The notes: generated by a model not told the origin, from the letters alone. A stretch of DNA of 45,280 bases from Actinomycetes bacterium (GCA_036510875.1 DATCDE010000036.1:1-45280), one strand, 5' to 3'. Shown: positions 9,854-28,536, counted from the first letter of the stretch. Program-made: numbers and translations.

Positions 9854-10714
9854 ATGACCGACCAGTTCCCCGCCTACGGGCGCTCGGCCCGGCTCGACCG
9901 GGTGCTGTCTGACCTGCTGGGTCAGGCCCCCGAGCTGCAGGCAGCGTCCGTGGTGTCCTTCGACGGGCTGCCGATGGCCTCGGCCCTGCCCGTCGGCATG
10001 GACGAGGACCGCGTCGCGGCCATGAGTGCCGCCCTGCTCTCCCTCGGGGAGCGCGCCGCGGACAACTTCGGCCGTGGCGACCTGAACCAGGTCTACGTCG
10101 AGGGTGAGCGCGGGACCGTGTTCCTGGTCTCCGCCGACGACGAGGCCGTGCTGGTCGCCATGGGCGCGCAAGGCGCCAAGGTCGGCCTGCTCATGTACGA
10201 GGTGCGCCGGGCCGCCATCGCCGTGGCGGCCGCGCTGCGCGCGGACGATGCCACGGCCCTGGCTCTCGCCGAGGACCAGCGGGTGGCTGCCGAGGCCGCC
10301 GAGGTGGCCGAGCAGCGGATGGCGGCGCAGGCCGCGGAACAGGCCGCCGTCGAGGCGGCGCTGGCCGAGCGGCGGGCGCAGCTGGCCGCCGTCCCGGCCG
10401 CCGAGCCGGTGGCTGAGCCGGTCGTCGAGGAGATGTCGGACAACACCGAGAAGCTCGAACCGGTGGGCTACTACACCGGCGGGCCGGTCGAGGTCCCGGC
10501 GGAGTACGCCACCCTCGCAACGTCGGTGGCATCCGGCTGGGACAGCCCCCCGGCCGAGCCCGACCCGGAGCCGGAGCCGGAGCCGGTGGCCGCCGTCCCG
10601 GTGGCGAGCGTCGCTGCCAATCCCGACCTCGGTGCCTGGGCCACGTTCACCCCGAGCGAGCCGGTCGCGAGGCCGGTCCTCTCGGCCGCCGAGGAACCGA
10701 ATCTCTGGGCCTGA
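9854..10714 (+). CDS. Roadblock/LC7-domain protein with Pro/Glu-rich tail
   Basis: A 286-residue protein. Residues ~10-125 form a roadblock/LC7 domain (VLSDLLGQAPELQAASVVSF...MSAALLSLGERAADNF..., GERGTVFLVSADDEAVLVAMG), a fold that regulates small GTPases (MglB is the best-known bacterial case). A heptad-like Ala/Glu helix (about 140-185) and an acidic Pro-rich tail with EPEPEPEP follow. The ATG at 9854 has GAAAAGGG upstream and starts just before the domain; the longer frame adds no homology. It is the first gene of an operon with a DUF4388 protein and a GTPase, directly upstream of the pilus motor genes, so a role in controlling the GTPase and the pilus is likely (inference). Confidence 0.85.
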   Translation: MTDQFPAYGRSARLDRVLSDLLGQAPELQAASVVSFDGLPMASALPVGMDEDRVAAMSAALLSLGERAADNFGRGDLNQVYVEGERGTVFLVSADDEAVLVAMGAQGAKVGLLMYEVRRAAIAVAAALRADDATALALAEDQRVAAEAAEVAEQRMAAQAAEQAAVEAALAERRAQLAAVPAAEPVAEPVVEEMSDNTEKLEPVGYYTGGPVEVPAEYATLATSVASGWDSPPAEPDPEPEPEPVAAVPVASVAANPDLGAWATFTPSEPVARPVLSAAEEPNLWA

Positions 10715-10752
10715 CCGACCGCTGACCAGCCATCGACCAGACGGGAACTGAT

Positions 10753-11955
10753 GTGAAACTCGAGGGCTCGCTCGATGCCTTCGGCCTCCCGGACATCTTC
10801 CAGCTGCTGAGCCACACGAAGAAGACCGGAGGCCTGCACCTGCGGCGCGGGGGAGCCGACGGTGTCGTCTACTTCGCGGACGGCGCGGTCTGCGGCGCCT
10901 CGGCCGACGAGCGCCAGCAGACGCTGGCCCGACGGCTGGTCGGCAGCGGCACCGTGGACGACGACGCGCTACGGTCTGCGGTCCAGCGCGCGGTCAACGA
11001 CCAGGTGGGCATCGGCCGGGCGCTGCTCGAGTCGAACGCGGTCGACCCCGAGCTGCTGCGCGAGGCCGCCACCGAGCAGACCTTCGACGCGGTGTTCGAC
11101 TTGATGTGCTGGACCGAGGGCGACTTCGCCTTCGCGGGCGACGAGTCGGACCCGGACGGCGTCGGGCTGCGGCTGCCCGCCGACACGGTGGTCGACGAGG
11201 CGCAGAGCCGGCGCGAGGCCTGGGATGCCGCGGCCTCCGGCGTGCCGTCGCCGGACACCGTCCTGGCCATGCCCGTCGTCCTCGACGACGATCCCGCCTT
11301 GACCAGGGACGAGTGGGCGCTGCTGGCCCTCGTCGACGGCCGTCGCCCGGTTCGGGAGATCGTCGAGCTCACCGGGGCCGGCCAGTTCGCCGTCGTGTCC
11401 ACGCTCTCCCGTCTGGTCGAGCGCGGGTTGCTCGGTGTCCGCAACGACGCGCACGACCATGCGGCCGTCGTCGCCCGCCGGCTCGCCCTGCTCTCCCCGC
11501 TGGAGCGAGAAGGCAAGCGCCAACGCGGGAATGAGAGCGACGCGGGCGGCGCCGAAAAGCCCGCCTCTGAGGAGCCTGAACCAGCGCCGGTCGTGTCGTC
11601 AGCCACGACCGAGGCGGCACCTGAGACTGCCGACGAGCCGGACTCATCGGCGGACGAGCAGCCGCACGACCTTGAGCCGGTGGGCATCTCTGCCGTCCGG
11701 CAGGAGACGCTGGCTCCCGTGATGACCACGGATCAGCCGTCGCCCCTGAGTCGCGTGCACGTCAACGTCTCCCAGCAGGCCGGTTCACCGCTGCGGGTGG
11801 GCGAGAGCACCCTCGGTGGGGGCCTGAGCGGGGTCGGTGGCGTCGTGGGCAGCACCGCGACCGCGCCCGAGCCGGCATCGTCGGCCATCGAACGTGACCC
11901 CAATGTCAACCGCAGCCTCCTGCTGAGGCTCATCGCCGGCGTCAGGGGGCTGTGA
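10753..11955 (+). CDS. DUF4388 (PATAN-like) domain protein
   Basis: A 400-residue protein. The first ~110 residues match DUF4388: KLEGSLDAFGLPDIFQLLSHTKKTGGLHLRRGG, then a helical segment around FDLMCWTEGDFAFA. DUF4388/PATAN domains occur in bacterial signalling proteins, some linked to gliding or T4P motility. A second region (about 175-240: LTRDEWALLALVDGRRPVREIVELTG) looks like a winged helix. The rest is acidic, disordered sequence that ends in a short amphipathic helix NRSLLLRLIAGVRGL, a possible docking peptide. Translation starts at GTG 10753, 38 bases after the roadblock gene; the GTPase follows after one base. Confidence 0.8.
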   Translation: MKLEGSLDAFGLPDIFQLLSHTKKTGGLHLRRGGADGVVYFADGAVCGASADERQQTLARRLVGSGTVDDDALRSAVQRAVNDQVGIGRALLESNAVDPELLREAATEQTFDAVFDLMCWTEGDFAFAGDESDPDGVGLRLPADTVVDEAQSRREAWDAAASGVPSPDTVLAMPVVLDDDPALTRDEWALLALVDGRRPVREIVELTGAGQFAVVSTLSRLVERGLLGVRNDAHDHAAVVARRLALLSPLEREGKRQRGNESDAGGAEKPASEEPEPAPVVSSATTEAAPETADEPDSSADEQPHDLEPVGISAVRQETLAPVMTTDQPSPLSRVHVNVSQQAGSPLRVGESTLGGGLSGVGGVVGSTATAPEPASSAIERDPNVNRSLLLRLIAGVRGL

Positions 11956-11956
11956 G

Positions 11957-12532
11957 ATGGCGACCAAGGCGCGTAGCCGTCGTGGTGGACAGGCGGTGAA
12001 GATCGTCGTCACCGGCCCGTTCTCGGCCGGCAAGACCACGCTCATCCGCACCATCAGCGAGATCACCGTGCTGTCGACCGAGCGCAGCATCACCGACTCG
12101 ACCCGCAGCCGCAAGGCCGAGACGACAGTGGCCATGGACTTCGGCCGCATCACGATCGACCGTGAGCTGGTGCTCTACCTGTTCGGGACGCCCGGCCAGG
12201 AGCGGTTCGACTTCATGTGGGAGATCCTCGGCGAGGGCATGCTCGGCTACGTGCTCCTGGTGGACGCCGAGCGCGAGGACTCCCTCATCGAGGCGGTGGG
12301 CATCCTGGACGCGTTCCGGCGGATGGCCCGGGTGCCGTTCGTGGTGGCGCTGAACCGCTCGAGCGCGGTGGATGACCGCACCGAGGACCGGATCCGAGAC
12401 GTGCTGCAGCTGGGACCGGAGACGGCGCTGCTGCCGGTGGACGCCACCGACAAGGAGTCGGTCAAGGGCGTGCTGCTGGCGCTGCTCTACGCCGTGCTGG
12501 ACGAGGTCGAGACCGAGCGCGCCTCCGTCTGA
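11957..12532 (+). CDS. Small Ras-like GTPase (CvnD/MglA-like)
   Basis: A 191-residue P-loop GTPase. G1 is GPFSAGKTT (residues 20-28) and G3 is FGTPGQERF (76-84), the CvnD/MglA-type variant in which the usual Asp is Thr. A conserved Thr in switch I is probably in STERSITDSTR. The G4 region reads ALNRSSAVDD (131-140), so the Asp of NKxD that reads the guanine base is missing; G5 may be VDATD (161-165). Roadblock plus GTPase pairs occur in actinobacterial conservons (cvnB/cvnD) and in Myxococcus (mglB/mglA), where the GTPase sets T4P polarity. Here the pair sits at the head of the pilus locus, so a matching role is inferred. No membrane segment is seen. Confidence 0.88.
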   Translation: MATKARSRRGGQAVKIVVTGPFSAGKTTLIRTISEITVLSTERSITDSTRSRKAETTVAMDFGRITIDRELVLYLFGTPGQERFDFMWEILGEGMLGYVLLVDAEREDSLIEAVGILDAFRRMARVPFVVALNRSSAVDDRTEDRIRDVLQLGPETALLPVDATDKESVKGVLLALLYAVLDEVETERASV

Positions 12533-12561: not shown

Positions 12562-14004
12562 TTGGATCCCGCCGATCCTTCAGCCGTGACGATCGCTGAG
12601 CGGCTGGGAGTCGCGCTGGGGGAGGCATCCGAGACCGACCGAGCCACCACGTGGGGCTCCCCGATGACGTGGATCGGGCTGGTCGTCGTGGCCTTGCTCG
12701 TCACCTGGTTCCCGCACCCCTTCGGCGGACGTGATGTCGGTGCCACGTCAGTCGCTGCCATCGGGGTGGCTGTCAGCCTCGTCCTGGTCCGGCCCTGGCG
12801 CTCGGCCGGGCCGGCGCTGATCGGCCTGCTGGCCTGGCTCGCGGTCGCAGCGCTCCTCGTGGTCCCGTTGACCAGCGGGGGGCGTGGCGCGGCGGTGGCG
12901 GCAACGACCTATGGCCTGGCTGCCGGTGCCTTCCTGCTGACTCGCTGGCTGGGCAGGGATGATCTGGCTCGCCGGGCCCTGGTCGCCGCGGTCGCGCTCG
13001 GCGGGATCCTGCAGTTCGGCTGGGCGTTCCTGCCCTGGTGGGGATCCGGTGACCCCGCCCACGGGATGGTCGGAACGTACTACTGGAAGAACCAGTACGC
13101 GGCGGCGCTGCTGGCCCCCGCGGTTCTCGGGCTGGCTCTCGCGGTCCTCAACCGGCGCCCTTGGCGCCTGATCGGCTGGGTCGCAGCCCCGCTGTCGGTG
13201 ACCGGGACGTTCCTGTCCGGCTCGCGGGCGGCGTTGGCCATCCTCGCGGTCGGCTGGCTCGTCGTCGGCGTGCTTCTCGTGGCTGGGGCGAAGCAGCGGC
13301 GTGCCCGAGTGGTCCGGTGGGTCGCTGTCTCCCTGCTGACCGCGGCGGTGGCCGTCGTCCTGCCCGGCCCGCCGCTGTTCTCCCACCAGCGATCACCACT
13401 GAGCCAGACGGTGGCGAGCACCGCCGATGGTCATCTGCAGTCCAGCGGCGACTACCGGCTGCAGGTCTGGACCGAGGCCGTCCACGTCTTCACCGACCAC
13501 CCGCTGACGGGCGCCGGCTACGGCCGGGTGGCCTCGGCGACGGCAGCGTGGAAACCGGCGGGCTGGCCGGTGTCGTCGCTGGTGCACAACGGTGCGCTTC
13601 AGGCCCTGGCGGACGGCGGCCTGTTGCTGGCCGTCCCGTTCCTGGTCCTGCTCGGGGCGGCGGTTCTCGTCCTGCTGCGCAGGGCGGTCCCGAAGGGGGG
13701 ATCAGAGCGGGATCCGTTGGTCGAGGTGGCCGCCGTCGCCGGTCTGATGCTGATCGCGCACTCGATGGTCGACTTCGACTGGTCCTACCCGGCGCTGGCC
13801 GTGATCACCGCCGTCGTCATCGGGCTGGCGATCCCCGCCCGGCCGGTCCAGCAGGTGGGAGTCACTGCGGGTCAGTCGAGAGCCACCGGCTGGCTGGCCG
13901 CGGTGCTGGTGGGCTCGCTCGTGGTCGGGGGCCTCGCCTCGTGGGGGCAACAGTTCCACATCAACGCGTCCGTCGCAGTCACGAGCCAGGGGGCCAGCAA
14001 GTGA
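12562..14004 (+). CDS. O-antigen ligase/polymerase-like (Wzy_C family) membrane protein
   Basis: A 480-residue polytopic membrane protein with about 12 hydrophobic segments. The family hallmark is the central YYWKNQYAAALLAPAVL...FLSGSRAA, followed by a periplasmic-type loop with DYRLQVWTEAVHVFTDHPLTGAGYGRV and a late VHNGALQALADGGLL, as in WaaL/Wzy/PglL proteins. These transfer or polymerise lipid-linked glycans. Its place inside the pilus operon, with its stop overlapping the pilB start (GTGA), suggests pilin O-glycosylation (inference). The start is uncertain: TTG at 12562 has AGGAG only 3 bases upstream, while GTG at 12586 would shorten it by 8 residues. Confidence 0.8.
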   Translation: MDPADPSAVTIAERLGVALGEASETDRATTWGSPMTWIGLVVVALLVTWFPHPFGGRDVGATSVAAIGVAVSLVLVRPWRSAGPALIGLLAWLAVAALLVVPLTSGGRGAAVAATTYGLAAGAFLLTRWLGRDDLARRALVAAVALGGILQFGWAFLPWWGSGDPAHGMVGTYYWKNQYAAALLAPAVLGLALAVLNRRPWRLIGWVAAPLSVTGTFLSGSRAALAILAVGWLVVGVLLVAGAKQRRARVVRWVAVSLLTAAVAVVLPGPPLFSHQRSPLSQTVASTADGHLQSSGDYRLQVWTEAVHVFTDHPLTGAGYGRVASATAAWKPAGWPVSSLVHNGALQALADGGLLLAVPFLVLLGAAVLVLLRRAVPKGGSERDPLVEVAAVAGLMLIAHSMVDFDWSYPALAVITAVVIGLAIPARPVQQVGVTAGQSRATGWLAAVLVGSLVVGGLASWGQQFHINASVAVTSQGASK

Positions 14005-15665
14005 AGCAGTTGGGGGACATTCTGCTCGAGGGTGGCTTGGTCACCCATGAGCAGCTGCAGGCGGCCTTCGAGGTGCACGAGTCGGCGGGTCGGGCGCTCG
14101 GCCGGGTCCTCGTCGACCAGGGTGTCTTGTCCGAGAGCCAGCTGGTGGCCGCTCTGGCCACTCAGATCGGCATGCGGTTCGTCGAGCTGGGCGACCAGCA
14201 GGTCGACCCGTCGGCCATGTCACTCGTTCCGGCGGCGCTCGCCCGCCGCTACGTCGTCCTGCCGTTCGGGTTCGAGGACGGCAAGCTGCTCCTCGCCATG
14301 GCCGATCCGGCCAACTTCCTGGCCATCGAGGACGTCCGGGCGGTCGCCCAGGTCGAGGTCAAGCCGTGCGTCGCGACCCGGCAGGACGTGCTGGCCGCGA
14401 TCGACCGGCTGTACCGGGCCGACTCCGAGCTCGAGGACCTGACAGCGGTCCTGGACACCTCGAACGATGAGGAGGACCTCTCCAAGGTCACGGCGGACGT
14501 CGACGACGCCCCGATCGTGCGCTACGTCAACATGCTGATCACCCAGGCGATTCAGGACCGTGCCTCTGACATCCACCTGGAACCCACGGAGCGCGACCTG
14601 CGGGTGCGCTACCGCATCGACGGCGTCCTGCACGAGGTGATGCGCTCCCCGAAGAACGTGCAGGCGGGTGTGATCAGCCGGTTGAAGATCATGGCCGACA
14701 TCAACATCGCGGAGCGCCGGATCCCCCAGGACGGCCGCCTGTCGGTGTCGAGCAACGGCAAGAAGGTCGATCTCCGGGTGGCGACGCTTCCCACGGTGTG
14801 GGGGGAGAAGGTCGTCATGCGAATCCTGGACAACTCCACCGCGCGCCTCGACCTGTCGGACCTGGGGTTTTCGGACGGCAACTACGAGCGGTACTCCAAG
14901 AGCTTCACCAAGCCCTACGGGATGATTCTGGTCACCGGGCCGACCGGTTCCGGAAAGTCGACGACGCTGTACGCGACGCTGAACATCCTGAACAAGCCCG
15001 AGGTCAACATCATCACGGTGGAGGACCCGGTCGAGTACCGGCTGCCGGGGGTCAACCAGGTGCAGACCAACAACAAGGCCGGGCTGACCTTCGCCTCGGC
15101 GCTGCGCTCGATCCTGCGCTCGGACCCCGACATCGTCCTCATCGGTGAGATCCGGGACCACGAGACGGCCCAGATCGCCATCGAGGCGGCGCTGACGGGT
15201 CACTTGGTCCTGGCCACGCTGCACACGAACGACGCGCCGAGCGCCATCACCCGGCTGACCGAGATGCGCATCGAGCCCTTCCTGGTCGGCTCGGCCGTCG
15301 ATGCCGTGCTCGCCCAGCGGCTGGCCCGGCGGCTGTGCACCAAGTGCAAGGAGCCGTACGACCCGACGCCCGACATGCTCCGGGCCGCCCGATACCCGTG
15401 GCAGGAGGGGGATCAGATCCCCACCTTCTACCGGGCGGTCGGATGCCCAGCCTGCGCCAAGACCGGCTACCGGGGGCGGTTGGCGCTGCACGAGGTCATG
15501 CAGGTCACCGAGGAGATCGAGCGGCTGACGGTCGAGCACAGCTCGGCGTCGACCATCAACGAGGCGGCCATCGCCCAGGGCATGGTGACGCTCCGCAACG
15601 ACGGGCTGGCCAAGGTCGCCCAGGGGGTCACGTCGATGGACGAGATCCTGCGCGTCGTGGTCTGA
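14001..15665 (+). CDS. pilB: Type IV pilus extension ATPase PilB
   Basis: A 554-residue GspE/PilB-type ATPase that powers pilus assembly at the inner face of the membrane. The N-terminal T2SSE_N domain (about 1-150: MKQLGDILLEGGLVTHEQLQ) is followed by the catalytic domain with Walker A GPTGSGKST (about 312-320), Asp box, Walker B IGEIRD (about 380) and His box. A zinc-binding tetracysteine, CTKC (about 446) ... CPAC (about 481), is typical of PilB/GspE and absent from PilT. The GTG at 14001 overlaps the previous stop. It is the last gene of the first pilus transcription unit; pilT has its own promoter. Confidence 0.96.
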   Translation: MKQLGDILLEGGLVTHEQLQAAFEVHESAGRALGRVLVDQGVLSESQLVAALATQIGMRFVELGDQQVDPSAMSLVPAALARRYVVLPFGFEDGKLLLAMADPANFLAIEDVRAVAQVEVKPCVATRQDVLAAIDRLYRADSELEDLTAVLDTSNDEEDLSKVTADVDDAPIVRYVNMLITQAIQDRASDIHLEPTERDLRVRYRIDGVLHEVMRSPKNVQAGVISRLKIMADINIAERRIPQDGRLSVSSNGKKVDLRVATLPTVWGEKVVMRILDNSTARLDLSDLGFSDGNYERYSKSFTKPYGMILVTGPTGSGKSTTLYATLNILNKPEVNIITVEDPVEYRLPGVNQVQTNNKAGLTFASALRSILRSDPDIVLIGEIRDHETAQIAIEAALTGHLVLATLHTNDAPSAITRLTEMRIEPFLVGSAVDAVLAQRLARRLCTKCKEPYDPTPDMLRAARYPWQEGDQIPTFYRAVGCPACAKTGYRGRLALHEVMQVTEEIERLTVEHSSASTINEAAIAQGMVTLRNDGLAKVAQGVTSMDEILRVVV

Positions 15666-15719: not shown

Positions 15720-15778
15720 GCCTCGGAGGACAACCGATCAGGCTCGCGCCGTTGGGCGCGACCGTGAAGGGGGCAGGT

Positions 15779-17368
15779 GTGGAGACCTCCGGGTACAGCG
15801 GGGGATTCGTCCCGGGACCGAATCCGGTCCCGGCTCAGGACGAGTCCGTCCCGCCGTTGTCGCCGTTGGACGCCGCGTGGCAGCCGCCGCATCCGGCCGA
15901 GGCGCAGCTGCCGCCCCCCCCGTTCCCGGTGGGGCAGGCGACGCCTGAGGCATCGTCCATCGCGCTCGTGCCGCTCGACGACATCAGCCCGTCTGAGGCG
16001 GTCTCGATGTTCGGGCTGCCTGATGCGGCGCCGGTGTTCACCCCTGAGGCCGTTCCGGCGCAGCCGGTGATGGTGCCGGCCGCGGTGGCCCAGCCGGTCC
16101 TGGCGGCCGAGCCGGTCGCCGCGGTCGTCCCGTTACTCGAGCCGGTGGGCGCGCCGGAGCCACTCGCGGTCGCCCCGGTCTGGACGGAGCCTCCGGTCGA
16201 GCCGGTCGAGCCGCCGGCGGCACCCACGGTGACGATCGCTCAGACGGAAGCCTTCGAGGGTGCCTACCATCGCGGCAGCACAGAGGAGGACACCCAGGAG
16301 GGCGACCTCAACCTGCACGAGCTGCTGGCCCTGGTCCTCGAGCGCAGCGCGTCCGACCTCCACCTGACCTCCGGCTCGCGGCCGCAGCTGCGGCTCAACG
16401 GGCACCTGACCCCGCTCGAGGACTACCCCGAGCTGACCCCGGCGATCATCCAGCGGGCCATGTACGCCACGATCACGCAGCGGCAGCGGGAGAAGTTCGA
16501 GGAGCAGCTCGAGCTGGACTTCGCCTACTCCGTTCCGGGCAAGGCCCGGTTCCGGGTGAACCTGTACCGCCAGCGGGACTCGGTCGGCGCCGCCTTCCGG
16601 CTGATCCCGTTCGAGCTCAAGAAGCTCGAGGACCTCGGCGTTCCGCCGTCGGTCGCGAACTTCGCGATGCTGCCGCGGGGCTTCGTCCTGGTCACCGGGC
16701 CGACCGGCTCGGGCAAGTCGACGACCCTGGCCTCGCTGGTCGACCTTGCCAACCGGCAGCGCCGGGACCACATCATGACCGTCGAGGACCCGATCGAGTT
16801 CCTACACAACCACCAGTCCTGCATCGTCAACCAGCGTGAGGTGGGGGAGGACACGCACTCCTTCGCCAACGCGCTGAAGCACGTGCTGCGGCAGGACCCC
16901 GACATCATCCTGGTCGGCGAGATGCGGGACCTCGAGACGATCTCTGTCGCGCTCACCGCGGCTGAGACCGGCCACCTGGTCTTCGCCACCCTGCACACCC
17001 AGGACGCCGCCCAGACCATCGACCGCATCATCGACGTCTTCCCCCCGCACCAGCAGCAGCAGGTGCGGGTGCAGCTGGCGGGATCGCTCCAGGGGGTGGT
17101 CGCCCAGACCCTGGCCCGCACCGTCGACGGTCGCAGCCGCGTCGTCGCCACGGAGGTCCTCGTCGCGACGCCGGCCATCCGCAACCTGGTCCGCGAAGGC
17201 AAGACCCACCAGATCTACTCCGCCATGCAGGCGGGCTCCCAGCACGGCATGCACACGATGGACCAGCACCTGGCTGACCTGGTGAAGCGGGGACGCATCA
17301 CCTATGAGACCGGCCTGGAGAAGTGCCACCACATCGAGGACTTCAACCGGCTTTCCGGCCGGGGCTGA
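15779..17368 (+). CDS. pilT: Type IV pilus retraction ATPase PilT with long N-terminal extension
   Basis: A 529-residue protein; the last ~350 residues are a normal PilT: LHELLALVLERSASDLHLTSG, Walker A GPTGSGKST (about 305-313), Walker B VGEMRD (about 378), the AIRNLVREGK motif typical of PilT, and no tetracysteine. It drives pilus retraction. The first ~175 residues are a Pro/Val/Glu-rich low-complexity segment with repeated EPV/EPL motifs, similar in style to the tail of the roadblock protein. GTG at 15779 was chosen for the GAAGGGGG site 5 bases upstream; another GTG at 15764 would add five residues. Confidence 0.93.
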   Translation: METSGYSGGFVPGPNPVPAQDESVPPLSPLDAAWQPPHPAEAQLPPPPFPVGQATPEASSIALVPLDDISPSEAVSMFGLPDAAPVFTPEAVPAQPVMVPAAVAQPVLAAEPVAAVVPLLEPVGAPEPLAVAPVWTEPPVEPVEPPAAPTVTIAQTEAFEGAYHRGSTEEDTQEGDLNLHELLALVLERSASDLHLTSGSRPQLRLNGHLTPLEDYPELTPAIIQRAMYATITQRQREKFEEQLELDFAYSVPGKARFRVNLYRQRDSVGAAFRLIPFELKKLEDLGVPPSVANFAMLPRGFVLVTGPTGSGKSTTLASLVDLANRQRRDHIMTVEDPIEFLHNHQSCIVNQREVGEDTHSFANALKHVLRQDPDIILVGEMRDLETISVALTAAETGHLVFATLHTQDAAQTIDRIIDVFPPHQQQQVRVQLAGSLQGVVAQTLARTVDGRSRVVATEVLVATPAIRNLVREGKTHQIYSAMQAGSQHGMHTMDQHLADLVKRGRITYETGLEKCHHIEDFNRLSGRG

Positions 17369-17379
17369 GAGGCAGACTG

Positions 17380-18606
17380 ATGGCTACAGCGACCATGACC
17401 TTCCAGTACTCGGTGCGGGACCGGACCGGGAAGCTGGTCACCGGCAAGATCGATGCCGACTCGCCGGGTGCGGTGGCGAGCAAGCTGAAGAGCATGGGCT
17501 ACGCCCCGGTGAGCATCACCCAGACCAACGCCGGCATGTCGCGCGAGATCAACATGCCGAAGCTCGGCGCGAAGGTGAAGCTCAAGGACCTGGCGGTCTT
17601 CTCCCGCCAGTTCGCCACCATGATCAACTCGGGGCTGTCGCTACTGAGGGCCTTGAGCATCCTCGAGGAGCAGAGCGAGAACAAGGAGCTGAGCAAGGTT
17701 CTGACCCTGGTCCGCCAGGACGTCGAGACCGGGCAGTCGCTGTCCTCCGCGCTGGGCCAGCACCCCGACATCTTCCCGCCGCTCATGGTCAACATGATCA
17801 AGGCCGGCGAGGTCGGCGGCTTCCTCGACTCGGTCATGCTGCAGATCGCAGAGAACTACGAGACAGAGACCAAGCTGCGCGGCAAGGTCAAGTCGGCGAT
17901 GACCTACCCGGTGGTCGTCTTCATCATCGCCATCCTCGCCGTCATCGGCATGCTGATCTTCATCGTCCCGGTGTTCGCCAACCTGTTCAAGACGCTGGGC
18001 GGTCAGTTGCCGGCCCCGACGCGGGTGTTGGTGTTCTTCTCCGACGTGCTCAAGACCTGGGCTCCTGTCATCGTCATCGTGCTTGTGGCCGGCTTCATCG
18101 TCTGGACGAAGGTCAAGCGCACCGAGCGGGTCCGTAACGTCGTCGACCCGCTCAAGCTGAAGGCCCCGATCTTCGGCAACCTCTTCCAGAAGATCGCGCT
18201 CAGCCGCTTCACCCGCAACCTTGGCACCCTCATGCGCTCCGGCGTGCCGATCCTGCAGAGCCTGGACATCGTCGCCGACACGACGGGGAACGTCGTGGTG
18301 GCTAGGGCGGTGCGCGACGTGCAGGACAGCGTCCGCAAGGGTGAGTCGCTGACCGCGCCGCTGGCCAACCACGCGGTCTTCCCACCGATGGTGGTTCAGA
18401 TGATGTCCGTCGGTGAGGACACCGGCGCTCTGGACACGATGCTGCACAAGATCTCTGACTTCTACGACCAGGAGGTTGAAGCGACCACCGAAGCGCTGAC
18501 CTCACTCATCGAGCCGTTGATGATCGCGGTCCTCGGCGGGATCATCGGCTCCATGATCATCGCGCTCTACATGCCGATCTTCAAGATCTTCGACCTGATC
18601 AAGTAG
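17380..18606 (+). CDS. pilC: Type IV pilus inner-membrane platform protein PilC
   Basis: A 408-residue GspF/PilC-family protein that couples the PilB and PilT motors to the growing pilus. It has two T2SSF domains (around 65-190 and 270-400), each with the FSRQFATMINSGLSLLRAL / FTRNLGTLMRSGVPILQSL type start. TM segments are near 177-203 (VVVFIIAILAVIGMLIFIVP), 226-245 and 375-400. The ATG at 17380 is 11 bases after the pilT stop. A strong hairpin follows the gene, so the pilins downstream are separate units. Confidence 0.96.
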   Translation: MATATMTFQYSVRDRTGKLVTGKIDADSPGAVASKLKSMGYAPVSITQTNAGMSREINMPKLGAKVKLKDLAVFSRQFATMINSGLSLLRALSILEEQSENKELSKVLTLVRQDVETGQSLSSALGQHPDIFPPLMVNMIKAGEVGGFLDSVMLQIAENYETETKLRGKVKSAMTYPVVVFIIAILAVIGMLIFIVPVFANLFKTLGGQLPAPTRVLVFFSDVLKTWAPVIVIVLVAGFIVWTKVKRTERVRNVVDPLKLKAPIFGNLFQKIALSRFTRNLGTLMRSGVPILQSLDIVADTTGNVVVARAVRDVQDSVRKGESLTAPLANHAVFPPMVVQMMSVGEDTGALDTMLHKISDFYDQEVEATTEALTSLIEPLMIAVLGGIIGSMIIALYMPIFKIFDLIK

Positions 18607-18840: not shown

Positions 18841-19095
18841 GGATCTGTCGGAGTAGCTCACCGAACTGTCCCGGAGGGGAACACACATGCTCGAACGGAT
18901 CCGCAAGGCCCAGGAGGAGCACGAGGGTGGCTTCACCCTCATCGAGCTCCTGGTCGTCATCATCATCATCGGCATCCTCGCCGCGATCGCCATTCCGGTC
19001 TTCCTGAACCAGCGGAAGAAGGCCGTGGACGCGTCGCTGAAGTCCGACCTCCGCACCATGGCCACCGCCGAGGAGACCTACTTCGTGGACAACCG
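18827..19095 (+). repeat. Copy 1 of tandem duplication (leader end and 5' half of pilin gene)
   Basis: The stretch is nearly identical, without gaps, to 19622-19890 (offset 795 bases). It covers the last 60 bases of the leader, including CGGAGTAGCTCACCGA and the CCGGAGGGG ribosome site, and about the first 70 codons of the pilin. The 3' halves of the two genes are clearly diverged. Confidence 0.9.
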
Positions 19096-19321
19096 GGCCT
19101 ACCTTGCGGTGGCCGCCTCCACGGGCACTGCCACCGTCGGAACGCAGACGGTCAAGCTGTCGCCGAACAACTCCGTCACCGTGGTCTTCACCGGAGCCAA
19201 GGCCGGCACGTACTGCGTCAAGGCGACCAACCCGAACGGGACCGACCCGACGAACGGTTTCGTCTACCAGTCGGACAACGGGGGGCTCCAGGGAACAGGT
19301 GGGAACTGCACCGGCTACTAG
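18887..19321 (+). CDS. pilA: Type IV major pilin, copy 1
   Basis: A 144-residue prepilin. The 15-residue leader MLERIRKAQEEHEGG is cut by PilD before Phe16 (GG/FTLIELL), and the mature protein has the required Glu at +5 and the hydrophobic assembly helix. The globular domain has two Cys (TYCVKATN and GGNCTGY at the C-terminus) that likely form the D-region disulfide. Start ATG 18887 follows GGAGGGG. The gene is monocistronic, with its own promoter and terminator. Its N-terminal half is almost the same as copy 2 at 19682, while the surface-exposed C-terminal half differs, so the two may form different or mixed fibres. Confidence 0.95.
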   Translation: MLERIRKAQEEHEGGFTLIELLVVIIIIGILAAIAIPVFLNQRKKAVDASLKSDLRTMATAEETYFVDNRAYLAVAASTGTATVGTQTVKLSPNNSVTVVFTGAKAGTYCVKATNPNGTDPTNGFVYQSDNGGLQGTGGNCTGY

Positions 19322-19346
19322 CCTAGTCGAGTGCCTGATCGACCCA

Positions 19347-19382
19347 GTCTGGGGTCGGGACCGTATGGTCCCGACCCCAGAC
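19347..19382 (+). terminator. Hairpin terminator after first pilin gene
   Basis: A perfect 16-bp stem (19347-19362 with 19367-19382, starting GTCTGGGGTC) with a 4-base loop, 25 bases after the stop. The 360-base gap 19322-19681 holds this terminator, the promoter at 19474 and the riboswitch-like leader of the next pilin; no gene is seen in it. Confidence 0.88.
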
Positions 19383-19473
19383 GGCTTTGTGCTGACCACA
19401 GTTGTTCTGCTGATGGCCGCTGCTCACCGAGGCATAGGCCTTTCGGGTGATTCGGAGTTAAGTTCGGCTTGTC

Positions 19474-19500
19474 CTCAAGACGGCTCGGCGGTGGGTCGAT
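19474..19500 (+). promoter_or_regulatory. FliA/WhiG-like promoter of the second pilin gene
   Basis: CTCAAG (19474-19479), 14 bases, GGTCGAT (19494-19500), followed by CAC as in the first pilin promoter. Transcription starting near 19507 would give a 175-nt leader that contains the riboswitch candidate. Confidence 0.65.
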
Positions 19501-19520
19501 CACTTTCCTGTCATAGAGCT

Positions 19521-19610
19521 GCAACGACCAGAAACGGCACACCCGTCGTGAGGCGGGGTCGCAAAGCCAGGGGACCTGCGGGCGTGCAGGCCGGCCCAGC
19601 TGCCTCGGTC
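19521..19610 (+). ncRNA. Putative cyclic-di-GMP-I (GEMM) riboswitch aptamer in pilin leader
   Basis: Landmarks in GEMM order: GACC (19526-19529) able to pair with GGTC (19607-19610); GGCACACC (19536-19543); a stem CGTC-GTGA-GGCG with a GNRA tetraloop (19544-19555); the hallmark GGGGTCGCAAAGCCAGGGG, compared with GGGACGCAAAGCCNNGGG in known GEMM RNAs; a hairpin CCTGC-GGGCGT-GCAGG (19575-19590) closed by GGG/CCC; then CAGCTGCC near the place of the ligand-contacting AGC. It lies wholly inside the predicted leader. No clear expression platform was seen; a small GCCCT/AGGGC hairpin follows at 19613-19627. Assigned by eye, without a covariance-model search. Confidence 0.6.
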
Positions 19611-19621
19611 AGGCCCTTTCG

Positions 19622-19890
19622 CAGGGCGCTGTGGGGGATCTGTCGGAGTAGCTCACCGAACCGTCCCGGAGGGGAACACACATGCTCGCACGGATCCGCA
19701 AGGCCCAGGAGGAGCACGAGGGCGGCTTCACCCTCATCGAGCTCCTGGTCGTCATCATCATCATCGGCATCCTCGCCGCGATCGCCATTCCGGTCTTCCT
19801 GAACCAGCGGAAGAAGGCCGTGGACGCGTCGATGAAGTCCGACCTCCGCACCGTGGCCAACACGGAGGAGACCTACTTCGTCGACAACCA
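19622..19890 (+). repeat. Copy 2 of tandem pilin duplication
   Basis: Gap-free near-identical partner of 18827-19095. Upstream of the repeat the two leaders still align but with many substitutions, so the coding half and the 60 bases before it have been kept alike by recent duplication, gene conversion or strong selection. Confidence 0.9.
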
Positions 19891-20107
19891 GACCTACGTC
19901 GCTTTGACCGGCGCCGCGCCGGCGTACACGGTCGGCACGATCCCGGTCAAGACGTCGACTGGCAACACCCTCACCGTCAAGACTCCTGGTGCGGGTGGTG
20001 CAGGCACCTACTGCATCGCGGCGAGCAACACGAACGGCAGCCAGCCCTGGGTGTACATCAGCGACAACGGCGGCCTGCAGCCGTCCAGCGTCACTGTCTG
20101 CCCGTAA
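19682..20107 (+). CDS. pilA: Type IV major pilin, copy 2
   Basis: A 141-residue prepilin with leader MLARIRKAQEEHEGG and cleavage before Phe16 (FTLIELL, Glu at +5). The N-terminal assembly helix is the same as in copy 1. The C-terminal domain is distinct: it keeps the two Cys (TYCIAASN and the terminal VTVCP) but has a different loop (GAGGAGTYC). The ATG follows CCGGAGGGG. This copy has the better-preserved cyclic-di-GMP riboswitch candidate in its leader, so it may be the copy controlled by second messenger. It has its own promoter and terminator. Confidence 0.95.
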   Translation: MLARIRKAQEEHEGGFTLIELLVVIIIIGILAAIAIPVFLNQRKKAVDASMKSDLRTVANTEETYFVDNQTYVALTGAAPAYTVGTIPVKTSTGNTLTVKTPGAGGAGTYCIAASNTNGSQPWVYISDNGGLQPSSVTVCP

Positions 20108-20139
20108 CACCTGCACCGCAGAGGCAGAACCCTAGGACC

Positions 20140-20174
20140 GGTGGGGCCAGAGCGCAGTGCGCTCTGGCCCCACC
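20140..20174 (+). terminator. Hairpin terminator after second pilin gene
   Basis: A perfect 16-bp stem (20140-20155 with 20159-20174, starting GGTGGGGCCA) and a 3-base loop, 32 bases after the stop. Confidence 0.88.
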
Positions 20175-20192
20175 GCCTTGCGGGCGGGGGGC

Positions 20193-20219
20193 CTCAACCG
20201 ATCGGGCCAACAGGACGAG
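20193..20219 (+). promoter_or_regulatory. Weaker FliA/WhiG-like promoter of the third pilin gene
   Basis: CTCAAC (20193-20198), 14 bases, GGACGAG (20213-20219). It has one mismatch in the first box and two in the second compared with the other sites, but the same spacing and the same position, about 58 bases before the start codon. The gene may be transcribed less strongly. Confidence 0.45.
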
Positions 20220-20276
20220 GCATCGGTGGCCGAAGTAGCCGAGAAGGAAACTCGACATCATGAATGGGGGGCGTCA

Positions 20277-20726
20277 ATGAGACCCCGGGAAACTGTCCCG
20301 GGCCAGGAGCGAACTGCTGACGAAGGCTTCACCCTGATCGAACTGCTCGTCGTCATCATCATCATTGGCATTCTGGCGGCGATCGCGATCCCGGTGTACC
20401 TGAGCCAGCGAGACCGCGCGTACGACAGCGCGGCGAAGTCGGATGTACGGAACCTGGCCCAATTCGAAGAGACCCTGCTAGCTGGCACAGGCACGTACGG
20501 CTCATTCACGGACTTGGCGGCGGGCAACTTGACGGTCAAGCCCACTCGCCTGGTCACGCTGACCATCACGTTCAACAGCGCGGCCAGCTACTGCCTTTCG
20601 GCCAAGCATCTGAACGGGTCAACGACCTGGTACTACGACAGCCAGGCGGGGGGGATCCAGCCGAGGGGCAGCTCAGGCTGTCCGGTGACCACCGCCGGCA
20701 CGAGTGGGGGGTCGCTCACCGGCTAA
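20277..20726 (+). CDS. Type IV pilin-like protein, copy 3
   Basis: A 149-residue prepilin with leader MRPRETVPGQERTADEG and cleavage before Phe18 (FTLIELLVVIIIIGIL, Glu at +5). The rest differs from the first two pilins (VYLSQRDRAYDSAAKSDVRNLAQFEETLL) but keeps the two-Cys pattern (SYCLSAKHLNG and SSGCPVTT). The ATG at 20277 has GGGGGG upstream and gives a leader peptide of normal length. It may be an alternative or minor pilin. Its leader RNA does not match the other two. Confidence 0.92.
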   Translation: MRPRETVPGQERTADEGFTLIELLVVIIIIGILAAIAIPVYLSQRDRAYDSAAKSDVRNLAQFEETLLAGTGTYGSFTDLAAGNLTVKPTRLVTLTITFNSAASYCLSAKHLNGSTTWYYDSQAGGIQPRGSSGCPVTTAGTSGGSLTG

Positions 20727-24559: not shown

Positions 24560-25330
24560 GTGCTTGAAGCCCTAGCCGGCCTGCTCGGCCTGCTCGTCGG
24601 CTCGTTCCTCAACGTGGTCATCTACCGGGTGCCCCGTGGGGAGTCGGTCGTGCACCCGCGGTCACGCTGCCCGGGGTGCGGATACGAGCTGGCCTGGTAC
24701 GACAACGTGCCGGTGCTCAGCTGGCTGCTGCTGCGCCGGCGGTGCCGTCGCTGTCGGGCGCCGATCAGCGCCCGGTACCCGCTGGTCGAGGCGCTGACTG
24801 CGGTGGTCTTCGGCATGCTCGCCTGGCGGTTCGGGGCAACCTGGCAGCTGCCGGCCTTCCTCTACCTGGGGGCGGTCGGGGTCGCGCTGGCGTTCATCGA
24901 CCTGGACACCAAACGGCTGCCGGACGTCCTGACCCTGCCGTCCTACCTGGTCGGCGGGGCTCTGCTGCTGCTGCCGGCCGCGCTGGACGGGAACTGGTCG
25001 GCCTATCTGCGCGCCTGGCTGGGCGCCTTGGCGCTGTTCGGGTTCTACTTCCTGCTGGCCTTCATCTACCCGGCCGGCATGGGCTTCGGCGACGTGAAGC
25101 TGGCGGGCGTCCTCGGCCTCTACTTGGCCTGGTTGGGGTGGGGGGTCCTCGTGGTCGGCGGCTTCCTGGGATTCCTGCTCGGTGGCCTCATCGGCGGCGG
25201 CCTGATGATCGTCCGGCGGGCCGGCCGCAAGTCGAAGATTCCCTTTGGGCCCTTCATGATTCTCGGCGCCTTCCTGGCCTTGTGGATCGGCCAGCCGCTC
25301 ACCGACTGGTACGCCGGCATCCTCGGCTGA
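24560..25330 (+). CDS. pilD: Prepilin peptidase / N-methyltransferase
   Basis: A 256-residue polytopic aspartic protease of the cytoplasmic membrane that removes the leader of type IV prepilins and may methylate the new N-terminus. Seen: SFLNVVIYRVPRG, a zinc-binding CPGC ... CRRC loop (N-methyltransferase part), FIDLDTKRLPD and GFGDVKL with the two catalytic Asp, and about seven TM helices. All substrates (six prepilin-like genes) lie directly upstream. GTG start at 24560. Confidence 0.96.
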   Translation: MLEALAGLLGLLVGSFLNVVIYRVPRGESVVHPRSRCPGCGYELAWYDNVPVLSWLLLRRRCRRCRAPISARYPLVEALTAVVFGMLAWRFGATWQLPAFLYLGAVGVALAFIDLDTKRLPDVLTLPSYLVGGALLLLPAALDGNWSAYLRAWLGALALFGFYFLLAFIYPAGMGFGDVKLAGVLGLYLAWLGWGVLVVGGFLGFLLGGLIGGGLMIVRRAGRKSKIPFGPFMILGAFLALWIGQPLTDWYAGILG

Positions 25331-25401: not shown

Positions 25402-25471
25402 CCTCCGGCTGACATCGCCCACAGGGGTGACCAGTGCGGCCGCAGGGCTGCCTCGGGGAAAGGTTGGCGTC

Positions 25472-26536
25472 GTGGCAGGACGAACCGCCATCGGTCTCGA
25501 TATCGGGACGTCGGGGGTACGCGCCGCCGAGCTGCACTTCGGCAAGGGTGACGTAACCCTCGCGAAGTTCGGCCAGGTGGCCCTCCCGGAGGGAGCCGTA
25601 CGCGACGGCGAGGTCATCGACCCCGTCGCGGTGGGCCAGGCCATCAAGCAGCTGTGGGCCCATACCAAGTTCAGCAGCAAGAAGGTCGTCGTGGGGGTGG
25701 CCAACCAGCGGGTGATCGTCCGCCAGGTCGACCTGCCCTGGCTGCCGCCGGACGAGCTGAAGAAGTCGCTGCCCTACCAGGTTCAGGACTTCATCCCCAT
25801 GCCCGTGGAGACGGCGGTCCTCGACTTCTACCCGCTCGAGGAGACGACCAACGACGCCGGGGGGCGCACCTTGCGCGGCCTGCTCGTCGCTGCATCCCGT
25901 GAGATGGTGCTCAACGCCGTCCACGCGGTGCAGAAGGCGGGCCTGACCCCCAGCATGGTCGACCTGTCGTCGTTCGCGGTGCTTCGCTCGATGGCGCGTC
26001 CCGACCACCTCGGCCTCAGCAGCCAGGTGGAGGCGCTCGTCGACGTCGGTGCCAGGGTCACCAACATCGTCGTCCACGAGGGTGGGGTGCCCCGGTTCAT
26101 CCGGATCCTGCTCATGGGCGGCCAGGACCTCACCGATGCGGTCGCCGAGCGGATCGGTGTCCCGGTGCCCCAGGCCGAGGCCCTCAAGCAGGAGCTCGGG
26201 CTCGGTGACACCTCTGCGGACATGAACGCCGAGGTGACCGCCCGAGTCCTCGAGGCGGCGGCCGCCGCGTTCATCGATGAGGTCCGCGGCTCGCTGGACT
26301 ACTACATGGCCTCCAGCGGCTCGGCCTCCATCGAGCGCCTGCTGCTCACGGGTGGCGGGAGCCGGCTCAACGGCCTCGCCGAGCGGCTCAGTGCCGCGAC
26401 GCGGATCCCCGTGGTGCAGGGCAGCCCGCTGGGCAGCATCTCTGTTGGACGCACCGGGCTGACCCCGGAGCAGATCGAGTTCGTCGACCCGCTGGCAGTT
26501 GTCCCGGTCGGCCTGGCCCTCGGAGCGGCGTCATGA
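25472..26536 (+). CDS. pilM: Type IV pilus assembly protein PilM
   Basis: A 354-residue actin-like (FtsA-fold) ATPase that binds the cytoplasmic tail of PilN. Seen: AIGLDIGTSGVRAAEL (phosphate-1 motif), VDVGARVTNIVV (phosphate-2) and LLLTGGGSRLNGLAERL (adenosine motif). The GTG at 25472 begins right before the first strand and has GGGGAAAGG upstream; the longer frame adds an unrelated basic stretch. It is the first gene of the pilM-N-O-P unit, and its stop overlaps the pilN ATG. Confidence 0.95.
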   Translation: MAGRTAIGLDIGTSGVRAAELHFGKGDVTLAKFGQVALPEGAVRDGEVIDPVAVGQAIKQLWAHTKFSSKKVVVGVANQRVIVRQVDLPWLPPDELKKSLPYQVQDFIPMPVETAVLDFYPLEETTNDAGGRTLRGLLVAASREMVLNAVHAVQKAGLTPSMVDLSSFAVLRSMARPDHLGLSSQVEALVDVGARVTNIVVHEGGVPRFIRILLMGGQDLTDAVAERIGVPVPQAEALKQELGLGDTSADMNAEVTARVLEAAAAAFIDEVRGSLDYYMASSGSASIERLLLTGGGSRLNGLAERLSAATRIPVVQGSPLGSISVGRTGLTPEQIEFVDPLAVVPVGLALGAAS

Positions 26537-27195
26537 GCACGACGACGGCGGTGCGGAGCACCACCCTGCCACGGGTGAACCTGCTTCCCCCGGAGATCTC
26601 GGAGGAGGCCCGGTTCCGTTCGGTGCGGGCCATCCTCGCCCTGACCGTCCTTGCCGCGGCTGGAGTGGTCGGTGGGCTGTACTACCTGGCGGCGAACGAG
26701 GCTTCGTCGGCTCAGGAGGAGCTCAGCGCGGCCCAGGCGACCCAGACGTCACTGCAGGCCGAGGCGGCCAAGTACGCCGAGGTGCCGAAGGTCTACGCGG
26801 CACTGGCCGCGGCGCAGACCCAGCTGGACCGGGCGATGGGCCAGGAGGTCCGGTACTCCTACGTGCTCAACGACCTGAGCCTGACGATCCCCAGCAAGGT
26901 CTGGCTCACCCGGATGACCGTCACGCAGGACGTGGACGGCACCGGGTCGGTCACCGGAGCCTGGGGCAGCCCGGCCATCGGCAAGATCACGTTCACCGGG
27001 GTCGCCCTGTCGCACAACGACGTCGCGGCCTGGCTGGACGCGCTGGCCAAGAACGCGACGTACACCGACCCGTACTTCACCAACTCGACAGCTGGTGAGC
27101 CGATCGGCACGACACCGGTCGTGGACTTCAACTCCGAGGTCTCCCTCACGGACAAGGCCCTCTCCGGCCGCTACACCCAGAAGGCGGTGAAGTAA
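26533..27195 (+). CDS. pilN: Type IV pilus assembly protein PilN
   Basis: A 220-residue single-pass membrane protein. The short cytoplasmic tail has the PilM-binding motif RVNLLPPEI (residues 14-22), then a TM helix (ILALTVLAAAGVVGGLYYLA), a coiled coil (ASSAQEELSAAQATQTSLQAE) and a PilN-type ferredoxin-like domain with IPSKVWLTRMTV and FTGVALSHNDVAAWLDAL. With PilM and PilO it forms the alignment complex of the pilus machine. It overlaps pilM by 4 bases. Confidence 0.94.
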   Translation: MSTTTAVRSTTLPRVNLLPPEISEEARFRSVRAILALTVLAAAGVVGGLYYLAANEASSAQEELSAAQATQTSLQAEAAKYAEVPKVYAALAAAQTQLDRAMGQEVRYSYVLNDLSLTIPSKVWLTRMTVTQDVDGTGSVTGAWGSPAIGKITFTGVALSHNDVAAWLDALAKNATYTDPYFTNSTAGEPIGTTPVVDFNSEVSLTDKALSGRYTQKAVK

Positions 27196-27196
27196 G

Positions 27197-27877
27197 GTGA
27201 CCCGCACCCGGCAGTGGACGGTGGGAACCGCGCTGCTCGTCGTGCTCATGCTCGTCGCGGGCTGGTTCCTACTCATCTCGCCCAAGCGCAGCGAGGCCGC
27301 CGACCTGCAGACTCAAACCACGGCGCAGATGGCGCAGAATGCCAGCCTGCAGAACCAGATCGCCGTGCTCCAGTCCCAGGCGAAGAACCTGCCTGCACAG
27401 CAGGCCGAGCTGGCCGCCATCCGTCAGCACCTGCCAGACAACCCGGCGCTGCCCGGTCTGGTGAGGTCGCTCACCGACGCGGCGGCCAAGTCCGGCGTGA
27501 CACTGGTGTCGTTGGCACCGTCCACGCCCGCTGCGGCTCCGGCGCCCAAGACCACGGCACCTTCGGGCACGTCGGCAACGGCGCCTGCCACGGGGACCGG
27601 CCAGTCCGCCGCTGCTGCGGCCGCGGCCGGGGCGACCCTGCAGATGGTGCCGATCGTGGTCACCGTGACGGGGAGCTACTACGACACCGAGCAGTTCCTC
27701 AACAAGGTCGAAGGTCTGACCCGCTCGTTCCTGGTCACCGGCTTCTCGGTCACGCCTGCAGAGAGCCAGGCCTCGAGTGGGGCGAGCACCGGTGATCTCA
27801 CCACGGCCATCCAGGGTCGCGTCTTCTACACACCGGCCGCCGCGGCGGCCCCGACCACTGCCACCGCGCAGCAGTAA
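27197..27877 (+). CDS. pilO: Type IV pilus assembly protein PilO
   Basis: A 226-residue protein with one N-terminal TM helix (LLVVLMLVAGWFLLISP), a coiled coil with repeated Gln/Ala (QTTAQMAQNASLQNQIAVLQSQAKNLPAQQAEL), and a globular domain (LPGLVRSLTDAAAKSGVTLVSL, then VTGSYYDTEQFLNKVEGLTRSFLVTGFSV). An Ala/Pro/Thr-rich insert separates the two halves of the domain. It pairs with PilN. The GTG start is one base after the pilN stop. Confidence 0.93.
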   Translation: MTRTRQWTVGTALLVVLMLVAGWFLLISPKRSEAADLQTQTTAQMAQNASLQNQIAVLQSQAKNLPAQQAELAAIRQHLPDNPALPGLVRSLTDAAAKSGVTLVSLAPSTPAAAPAPKTTAPSGTSATAPATGTGQSAAAAAAAGATLQMVPIVVTVTGSYYDTEQFLNKVEGLTRSFLVTGFSVTPAESQASSGASTGDLTTAIQGRVFYTPAAAAAPTTATAQQ

Positions 27878-27888
27878 GGGAGCCGACG

Positions 27889-28536
27889 ATGAGTGAGCAG
27901 TTCTCTCCGTTCGGTACGCCGCCCTCCGGCGGTGTCGGGCTGGCCGAGCCGCCGGCCGTGGAGGAGGAGTCGGCCGAGTCGGGCAACCGGAACAAGCTGT
28001 ACCTGCTGATCGGCGGAGCGGTAGCGGTCGTGGTCGGCGTCGCCGTCTACTTCCTGCTCTTCTCCGGCGGGTCGAGCGACACGGCTGCGACGGGGCCGGT
28101 GGTGGCGACGCCGCCGCAGGCCCAGGCCTCTGCGTCAGCGTCGCCGTCGGCAGCGGCTTCCACCGCGGCGGTTCCGCCGACCCAGACCATCAGCCAGGTC
28201 CGGGACCCGTTCAAGCCGGTGGTCGTGGCCCCGGTCGCGGCCGCATCGACGGCCCCGTCCGCGGCGGCGAGCACGGCTCCGACAGCGCCCACCGCGGGCC
28301 TGCCGGCTGCGCCGGCGACCGGCGGACCGGCGACCTTCTCGGTCGTGAGCGTCGACTCCAAGGCCGGGACCGCAGTCACGATGGTCGACGGCGTCAAGTT
28401 CACTGCGTCGGTGGGCCAGACGTTCGCCACCTACTTCAAGCTGGTGGCGGTCAACGTCAGCACGCCGTGCGGCGTGTTCCAGTACGGCGACTCGTCGATG
28501 AACCTGTGCGCGAAGGACACGGTGTCGCTGTCCTGA
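27889..28536 (+). CDS. Membrane-anchored pilus-locus protein in the PilP position
   Basis: A 215-residue protein with a Pro/Glu-rich cytoplasmic tail, one TM helix (LYLLIGGAVAVVVGVAVYFLLFS, about 37-59), an Ala/Pro/Ser/Thr linker with TISQVRDPFKPVV, and a small C-terminal domain (FSVVSVDSKAGTAVTMVDGVKF...CGVFQYGDSSMNLC) with two Cys. RDPF is a motif of PilP-like proteins, and position after pilO also fits PilP. Monoderms have no secretin for PilP to bind, so its partner here is unknown. It ends the pilus locus. Confidence 0.75.
   Translation: MSEQFSPFGTPPSGGVGLAEPPAVEEESAESGNRNKLYLLIGGAVAVVVGVAVYFLLFSGGSSDTAATGPVVATPPQAQASASASPSAAASTAAVPPTQTISQVRDPFKPVVVAPVAAASTAPSAAASTAPTAPTAGLPAAPATGGPATFSVVSVDSKAGTAVTMVDGVKFTASVGQTFATYFKLVAVNVSTPCGVFQYGDSSMNLCAKDTVSLS

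Follow-up and report, generated by a model that had tools for sequence, protein, structure and literature searches.

The described systems closest to the locus reported here are the conservons (CvnA-B-C-D; Mfp in mycobacteria), the MglA GTPases with their partner MglB, and the PATAN proteins of cyanobacteria. The mycobacterial homologues of CvnB and CvnC, MfpD and MfpC, are a GAP and likely a GEF, respectively (PMC13343842), and in Myxococcus exchange on MglA is driven by the C-terminal helix of MglB, which binds to it (PMC6785124, PMC11016934). The arginine finger is replaced by Thr in MglA Groups 2-5, and Group 5 genes occur occasionally beside PATAN genes, though the available part of that paper does not speak of a pil locus (Wuichet and Sogaard-Andersen 2014, PMC4316618). 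A PATAN domain contacts PilB in Synechocystis according to the accessible passage of PMC10519157, citing Han 2022, and the contact is also reported in PMC9090330. The component families are already known and so, as far as the excerpted text of PMC4316618 goes, is the occasional MglA-PATAN neighbourhood. In a review of monoderm pili the pili studied in Actinobacteria are Tad-type (PMC6916266); type IVa pili (T4aP) are not named among them. Neither a description of a pilus-linked roadblock/DUF4388/GTPase unit nor an experiment on one was found in the literature searched, in agreement with the original prediction that the function of such a unit is not yet described.

Such a unit is present in the window, by which we mean the whole stretch of 45,280 nucleotides analysed here. 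The three genes proposed for it, encoding a roadblock protein, a DUF4388 protein and a small GTPase (the trio), are confirmed by Pfam. PilB, PilT, PilC, PilMNO, a prepilin peptidase and N_methyl pilins are encoded together in the same stretch, which identifies a T4aP locus:

9854-10714, + strand: roadblock/LC7 (MglB/CvnB-like) gene; ATG start, 286 aa, PF03259 E 9.5e-18
10753-11955, + strand: DUF4388 (PATAN-type) gene of the putative adaptor; GTG start, 400 aa, PF14332 E 1.2e-23
11957-12532, + strand: Ras-like small GTPase gene; ATG start, 191 aa, ATP_bind_1, Ras and Roc matches
12562-14004, + strand: Wzy_C (O-antigen ligase-like) membrane protein gene; PF04932 E 5.7e-16
14001-15665, + strand: PilB extension ATPase with N-terminal MshEN; PF00437 E 5.8e-143, PF05157 E 3e-22
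15764-17368, + strand: PilT-type ATPase, start codon putative; PF00437 E 5.6e-48, ATPase domain C-terminal
17380-18606, + strand: PilC platform protein; PF00482 E 3e-69
18887-20726, + strand: three tandem type IV pilin genes; N_methyl Pfam match on the first
24560-25330, + strand: PilD, by Pfam
25427-26536, + strand: PilM, by Pfam
26533-27195, + strand: PilN, by Pfam
27197-27877, + strand: PilO, by Pfam
27889-28536, + strand: ORF 3' of PilO

The trio genes all lie on the + strand and are closely spaced, with 38 nt between the roadblock and DUF4388 genes and 1 nt between the DUF4388 and GTPase genes, and the start of pilB overlaps the end of the Wzy_C gene by 4 nt. The predicted position just upstream of the pilus motor genes holds as to the locus, but the Wzy_C gene (12562-14004) intervenes before pilB. 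No terminator-like site was found between 9600 and pilB, so that a single transcript from the roadblock gene to pilB is plausible on sequence grounds, promoter and terminator scans being uninformative in this GC-rich DNA. Upstream of the trio lie alaS, ruvX, mltG and aroE, the last as its direct neighbour. Pilins two and three were assigned by an N-terminal motif like that of the first, and further pilin-like ORFs sit after the three pilin genes and before PilD.

Some additional features of the locus and the genome were noted. Shikimate-pathway genes bracket the T4aP locus (window 8930-31399), with aroE before it and aroC and aroB after it, and the aroE side is conserved among relatives. The PilT-type protein appears to carry a Pro/Ala/Val-rich N-terminal extension of ~190 residues before its ATPase domain (15764-16330, start codon putative). 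A second PilT-like ATPase of 51% identity is encoded away from the pil locus (L147; G000:C177:11019-11852, - strand), as in most T4aP genomes of the host's class. Most trio genomes likewise have a second DUF4388 gene, which here encodes DEPVEDA-type repeats and runs off its contig (L146 3-1019; G000:C255:366-836, - strand). The only annotated insert between GTPase and pilB in a relative (L035 7600-15930) holds Wzx, glycosyltransferase and Wzy genes, and inserts of similar size are found in other relatives.

The roadblock protein consists of a roadblock domain and a long disordered tail, and its orthologues in the host's class mostly end in ..W[SA]. Its roadblock domain is the only one in the genome (4.05-Mb assembly, completeness 95%), so the trio is not a broken conservon among others.

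Across Actinomycetota, pil motor genes share a contig with the trio in 64 of 72 loci from several classes, and in 7 of the remaining 8 the contig ends within 5 kb. Within the host's class, window-type GTPases (~64-92% identity) were found in 35 of 198 genomes and are clearly separate from conservon-type GTPases (~43-52%). The recurring order in the 34 loci fetched from these 35 genomes is, on one strand, aroE, roadblock, DUF4388, GTPase, pilB, pilT, pilC. Pil motor genes are on the contig in 28 of the 34, with pilB in the fetched stretch in 27 and, in one further locus, pilT 18.5 kb downstream; the contigs of the other six end within 5 kb. The trio and window-type pilT co-occur in the class with an odds ratio of 27 (p 2e-14, uncorrected for relatedness), and no PilB was found in 14 conservon loci. 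In T4aP loci free of the trio, ruvX-aroE-pilB is found at the same site (L149, L150, L152, L153, L156), which marks the trio as a cassette, seemingly a distinct unit whose genes occur all together or not at all. Pilus assembly does not require the trio, as 16 T4aP genomes of the class are without it.

When the whole phylum was searched, the GTPase turned up in 45 more genomes that do not belong to the host's class. pilB lies within ~10 kb of the trio in 36 of the 38 loci fetched from these genomes; in the two exceptions the contig ends (L230) or the trio is unlinked, on a contig of 7.8 kb (L228). These 38 loci show at least three gene orders, namely aroE-trio-pilB, aroE-pilB-trio-pilB, which is the order in Coriobacteriia (named records), and roadblock (1-3 copies)-DUF4388-GTPase-aroE-pilB. 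The linkage of trio and pilB thus outlasts reshuffling of gene order, which argues for a functional tie. Chance adjacency of the trio and the pil genes is ruled out by the linkage, the co-occurrence and the varied gene orders.

Variants of these arrangements were also seen. Two different pilB genes flank the trio in the Coriobacteriia-type order (L080-L082, L211, L212, L218). Two to three tandem roadblock genes precede the DUF4388 gene in L213-L215, L217, L219-L221, L235 and L237-L239, where the DUF4388 protein reaches ~1300 aa and contains a very large linker of low complexity. In L151 and L158, T4aP loci of the host's class, pilT and pilC adjoin aroE with no pilB match there.

Anaerolineae keep a DUF4388-GTPase pair with no pil genes nearby, its neighbours at annotated loci being hydrolase, V4R protein, REC-GGDEF and GAF-kinase genes. 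The contrary expectation, that the trio is usually found away from pilus genes, therefore fails across Actinomycetota but does describe the pair of the Chloroflexota. No PilT was found in 28 Anaerolineae genomes with the pair, a search without a positive control in that group, so PilB binding cannot be the sole job of the pair. These observations indicate that the DUF4388-GTPase pair is a module of a general kind, which the Actinomycetota recruited to their T4aP. In L097 (10578-18443) and other Anaerolineae the pair heads a run of genes for an alpha/beta hydrolase, a V4R-domain protein and a hexapeptide transferase, which also includes a REC-GGDEF and a giant GAF protein. The V4R protein may replace the roadblock protein as GTPase partner in Anaerolineae.

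DUF4388 (PF14332) we take to be the PATAN domain that covers cyanobacterial PatA and PixE in InterPro. PF14332 matched in a Synechococcus elongatus control, and a plasmid tblastn search for a cyanobacterial PATAN reference returned Thermomicrobium only. The window protein is built of an N-terminal beta domain with a helical insertion, a winged helix, a disordered linker and a conserved C-terminal helix. In an AF2 model of residues 1-259 (pLDDT 93.7) the beta domain with its helical insertion is followed by the winged helix, and modelled strands at 3-50 and 124-129 around helices at 57-118, together with the PF14332 match, identify a PATAN-type fold. Three segments are of particular relevance:

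10924-11091, + strand: PilB-N-like helical insertion, ~residues 58-113, by hhalign and Foldseek
11299-11460, + strand: winged-helix segment, ~residues 183-236, by MarR_2/HTH matches and hhalign to CvnC
11890-11952, + strand: C-terminal helix IERDPNVNRSLLLRLIAGVRGL, conserved in Actinomycetota and Anaerolineae, with a counterpart in CvnC

In hhalign the insertion matched the PilB N-terminal domain at 97% (E 1.1e-10, 56 columns), the roadblock, GTPase, AroE, PilC and PilT controls reaching at most 1.1%. The top Foldseek hits in the PDB were the N-terminal domain of Xanthomonas citri PilB in the PilB-PilZ complex (7lko/7lkn), which fits the insertion with a prob of 0.99 and 1.6 A over 48 residues at 33% identity, and the list also holds Thermus PilF and MshE; the shortness of the match keeps the Foldseek E-values weak (0.26 at best). 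Profile comparison and structural search agree on the likeness, which is visible only by profile-profile and structural comparison. MshEN is absent from the best 25 Pfam families listed for 97 DUF4388 domains in direct scans, and searching the PDB sequences with the DUF4388 protein yielded no real match. No statement of a PATAN-MshEN likeness was found in the accessible text of papers naming both words, and the likeness may already be implied in domain databases.

The winged helix aligned with CvnC/DUF742 in hhalign at 56% (E 1.2e-4), with controls at 1.2% or below, and Pfam gave no DUF742 match for the window DUF4388 protein. At the other end of the linker, all DUF4388 proteins of the host's class end in forms of SLLLRLIAGVRGL, those of Coriobacteriia in forms of DLVLKIIEGIxxL, those of Anaerolineae in forms of SLVNRLIxRIRSL and those of other classes in related forms. 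This helix is kept while the stretch past the DUF4388 region ranges from ~30 to 1200 aa. CvnC proteins, four of which were confirmed to carry DUF742, have C-terminal helices resembling LLERVLSGLRKL, and when scored with a matrix built solely from DUF4388 ends, 10 of 10 CvnC ends rank within the best 0.3% among 6968 C-termini and 7 of 10 within the best 0.02%. An SD-like AGGGGG of the GTPase gene lies inside the DUF4388 codons for the C-terminal V-R-G-L, so part of the conservation in Actinomycetes may be translational. A model of a stop-read-through fusion of the DUF4388 protein and GTPase of a relative (locus L048) gave the C-terminal helix a pLDDT of 81-92 between disordered flanks, a predicted confidence that is suggestive only with regard to mechanism; the folds that Foldseek listed for this model, including MglA, were all of the Ras superfamily. 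The original view was that DUF4388 replaces the sensor kinase and DUF742 parts. A kinase gene is absent from the unit, but a winged helix and C-terminal helix like those of CvnC, together with a PilB-N-like domain, imply that DUF742 was not simply replaced.

The GTPase carries the motifs GPFSAGKTT (P-loop), ETTVAMDFG and GTPGQ, and TTVAMDFG and GTPGQ are kept in 27 of 27 orthologues. Aligned to MglA DRTLFFDF, it has Thr at the arginine-finger position. Its G4 is NR.., not NKxD (NRSS in the window), the consensus being NKQD in a set of paired DUF4388-GTPase sequences, mostly from Anaerolineae, and its G5 is DAT, not the conservon DAR. Among solved GTPases M. xanthus MglA comes nearest (E 1.3e-5). 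A tree of 121 sequences gives the conservon CvnD clade a support of 1.0 and the GTPase clade of the host's class 0.88, and places the window GTPase outside the CvnD clade. Membership of MglA Group 1 was rejected, as the arginine finger is missing and G3 reads GTPGQ, not TVPGQ. Compared by motif rule alone, as given in the available part of PMC4316618, the trio GTPase resembles Group 5 in GTPGQ and in Thr for the arginine finger, a feature shared by Groups 2-5, as well as in the PATAN neighbour and the occurrence in Actinobacteria and Chloroflexi, but the NR.. of the window clade departs from the canonical [NT]KxD in G4.

The trio shares with the conservons the order of a roadblock protein, a winged-helix protein with a C-terminal helix and a Ras-like GTPase, the last with GTPGQ and no arginine finger. 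Unlike them it is without a histidine kinase, its middle protein is PATAN-type with a long linker, and it occurs in one copy per genome, tied to T4aP genes. Conservon membership was rejected on the aroE gene in place of the CvnA histidine kinase, the missing DUF742 match and the separate GTPase clade. MglA/MglB of Myxococcus and Thermus (Group 1) is likewise a small GTPase with a roadblock partner, in Myxococcus with T4aP as its output, whereas the trio encodes its own putative adaptor, lies in the pil locus and would carry the exchange helix on the DUF4388 protein and not, as there, on the MglB partner. The cyanobacterial PATAN-CheY proteins (PixE, PixG, LsiR) have a PATAN-type domain, a reported PilB1 contact and a role in T4P steering, but their PATAN is fused to a phospho-receiver, whereas that of the trio is coupled to a GTPase and a roadblock protein. 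With the MshEN-type N-terminal domain of PilB/GspE, finally, the DUF4388 protein shares a two-motif helical module, which here is inserted into a beta domain and is not joined to an ATPase.

These data are best read as a conservon-like G-protein switch that lacks a kinase and acts on the T4aP motor, and we consider it reasonably probable that the trio is a dedicated switch of actinobacterial T4aP with the following roles. The small GTPase would be the timer, the roadblock protein its GAP, and the DUF4388 protein both exchange factor (GEF) and output adaptor. The flexibly tethered C-terminal helix would dock on the GTPase, as is thought for CvnC and shown for the MglB Ct-helix, while the N-terminal PATAN-type domain with its PilB-N-like insertion would contact PilB or PilB docking partners, and the GTP state would set PilB engagement at the pilus base. 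The reports on MfpD and MfpC, on the MglB Ct-helix and on PATAN-PilB contact together suggest the GAP, GEF/adaptor and timer roles, and we infer GAP, GEF and PilB binding from these relatives. A more specific idea, which we hold only tentatively and regard as doubtful, is that the PATAN domain with a captured copy of PilB-N serves the extension motor as an additional subunit or as a decoy. Acting via the tethered C-terminal helix, the GTPase would then time decoy occupancy of the PilB docking site, candidates for which are PilM, PilC or a place within the PilB ring.

The original prediction named polarity beside activation; nothing observed here supports the setting of a pole or polarity, and the data fit motor activation equally well. 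In a polarity switch the GTP-bound GTPase would mark a cell pole or site and recruit the pilus machinery, as MglA does in Myxococcus, where MglA, SgmX, FrzS and SopA set T4aP formation (PMC11580455); the GTPase and roadblock families are those of MglA/MglB, and M. xanthus MglA is the nearest solved relative. Such a role is nevertheless unlikely, as the locus holds no recognised landmark or polar partner such as RomR, a response regulator or a TPR protein, the GTPase is without the Group 1 arginine finger, no sequence feature bears on localisation or favours polarity over simple activation, and the PilB-N-like domain indicates the motor and not a landmark. Improbable, too, is a transcriptional switch in which the DUF4388 winged helix is a DNA-binding module and expression of pil or polysaccharide genes depends on the GTPase: the MarR-type matches in 56 of 97 homologues that speak for it are weak, that of the window having E 0.009, CvnC has a similar winged helix and yet a reported role as GEF (PMC13343842), and winged helices are frequently protein-protein modules.

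The Wzy_C gene between the window GTPase and pilB, and the inserts of several kb between trio and pilB in five to six loci of the class, would suit a switch that primarily governs surface polysaccharide or pilin glycosylation accompanying the pili, and not the motor. In most class loci, however, pilB stands directly 3' of the GTPase with no such gene, and we find this role scarcely probable; a part for the Wzy_C and polysaccharide genes in pilin glycosylation or pilus-associated exopolysaccharide is possible. The trio might also belong to the conserved ruvX-aroE region by history and be unrelated to pili, given that ruvX, mltG and aroE, themselves unrelated to pili, are conserved neighbours as well. 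This is very improbable, since trio and pilB stay together despite at least three orders around aroE across classes, the trio co-occurs with window-type T4aP, and the DUF4388 adaptor resembles PilB-N.

A G-protein switch acting on the pilus motor thus remains our preferred reading, and the trio is a defined candidate for the control of actinobacterial T4aP, with a proposed role for each part. The PilB-N-like insertion would explain PATAN-PilB contact at the level of a domain, and the C-terminal helix common to CvnC suggests an exchange-factor design shared by conservons and pilus-linked systems. If the decoy idea is true, pilus extension would be gated by a GTP timer, and the repeated association of PATAN proteins with T4P, seen in cyanobacteria, myxobacteria and Actinomycetota, would find an explanation.
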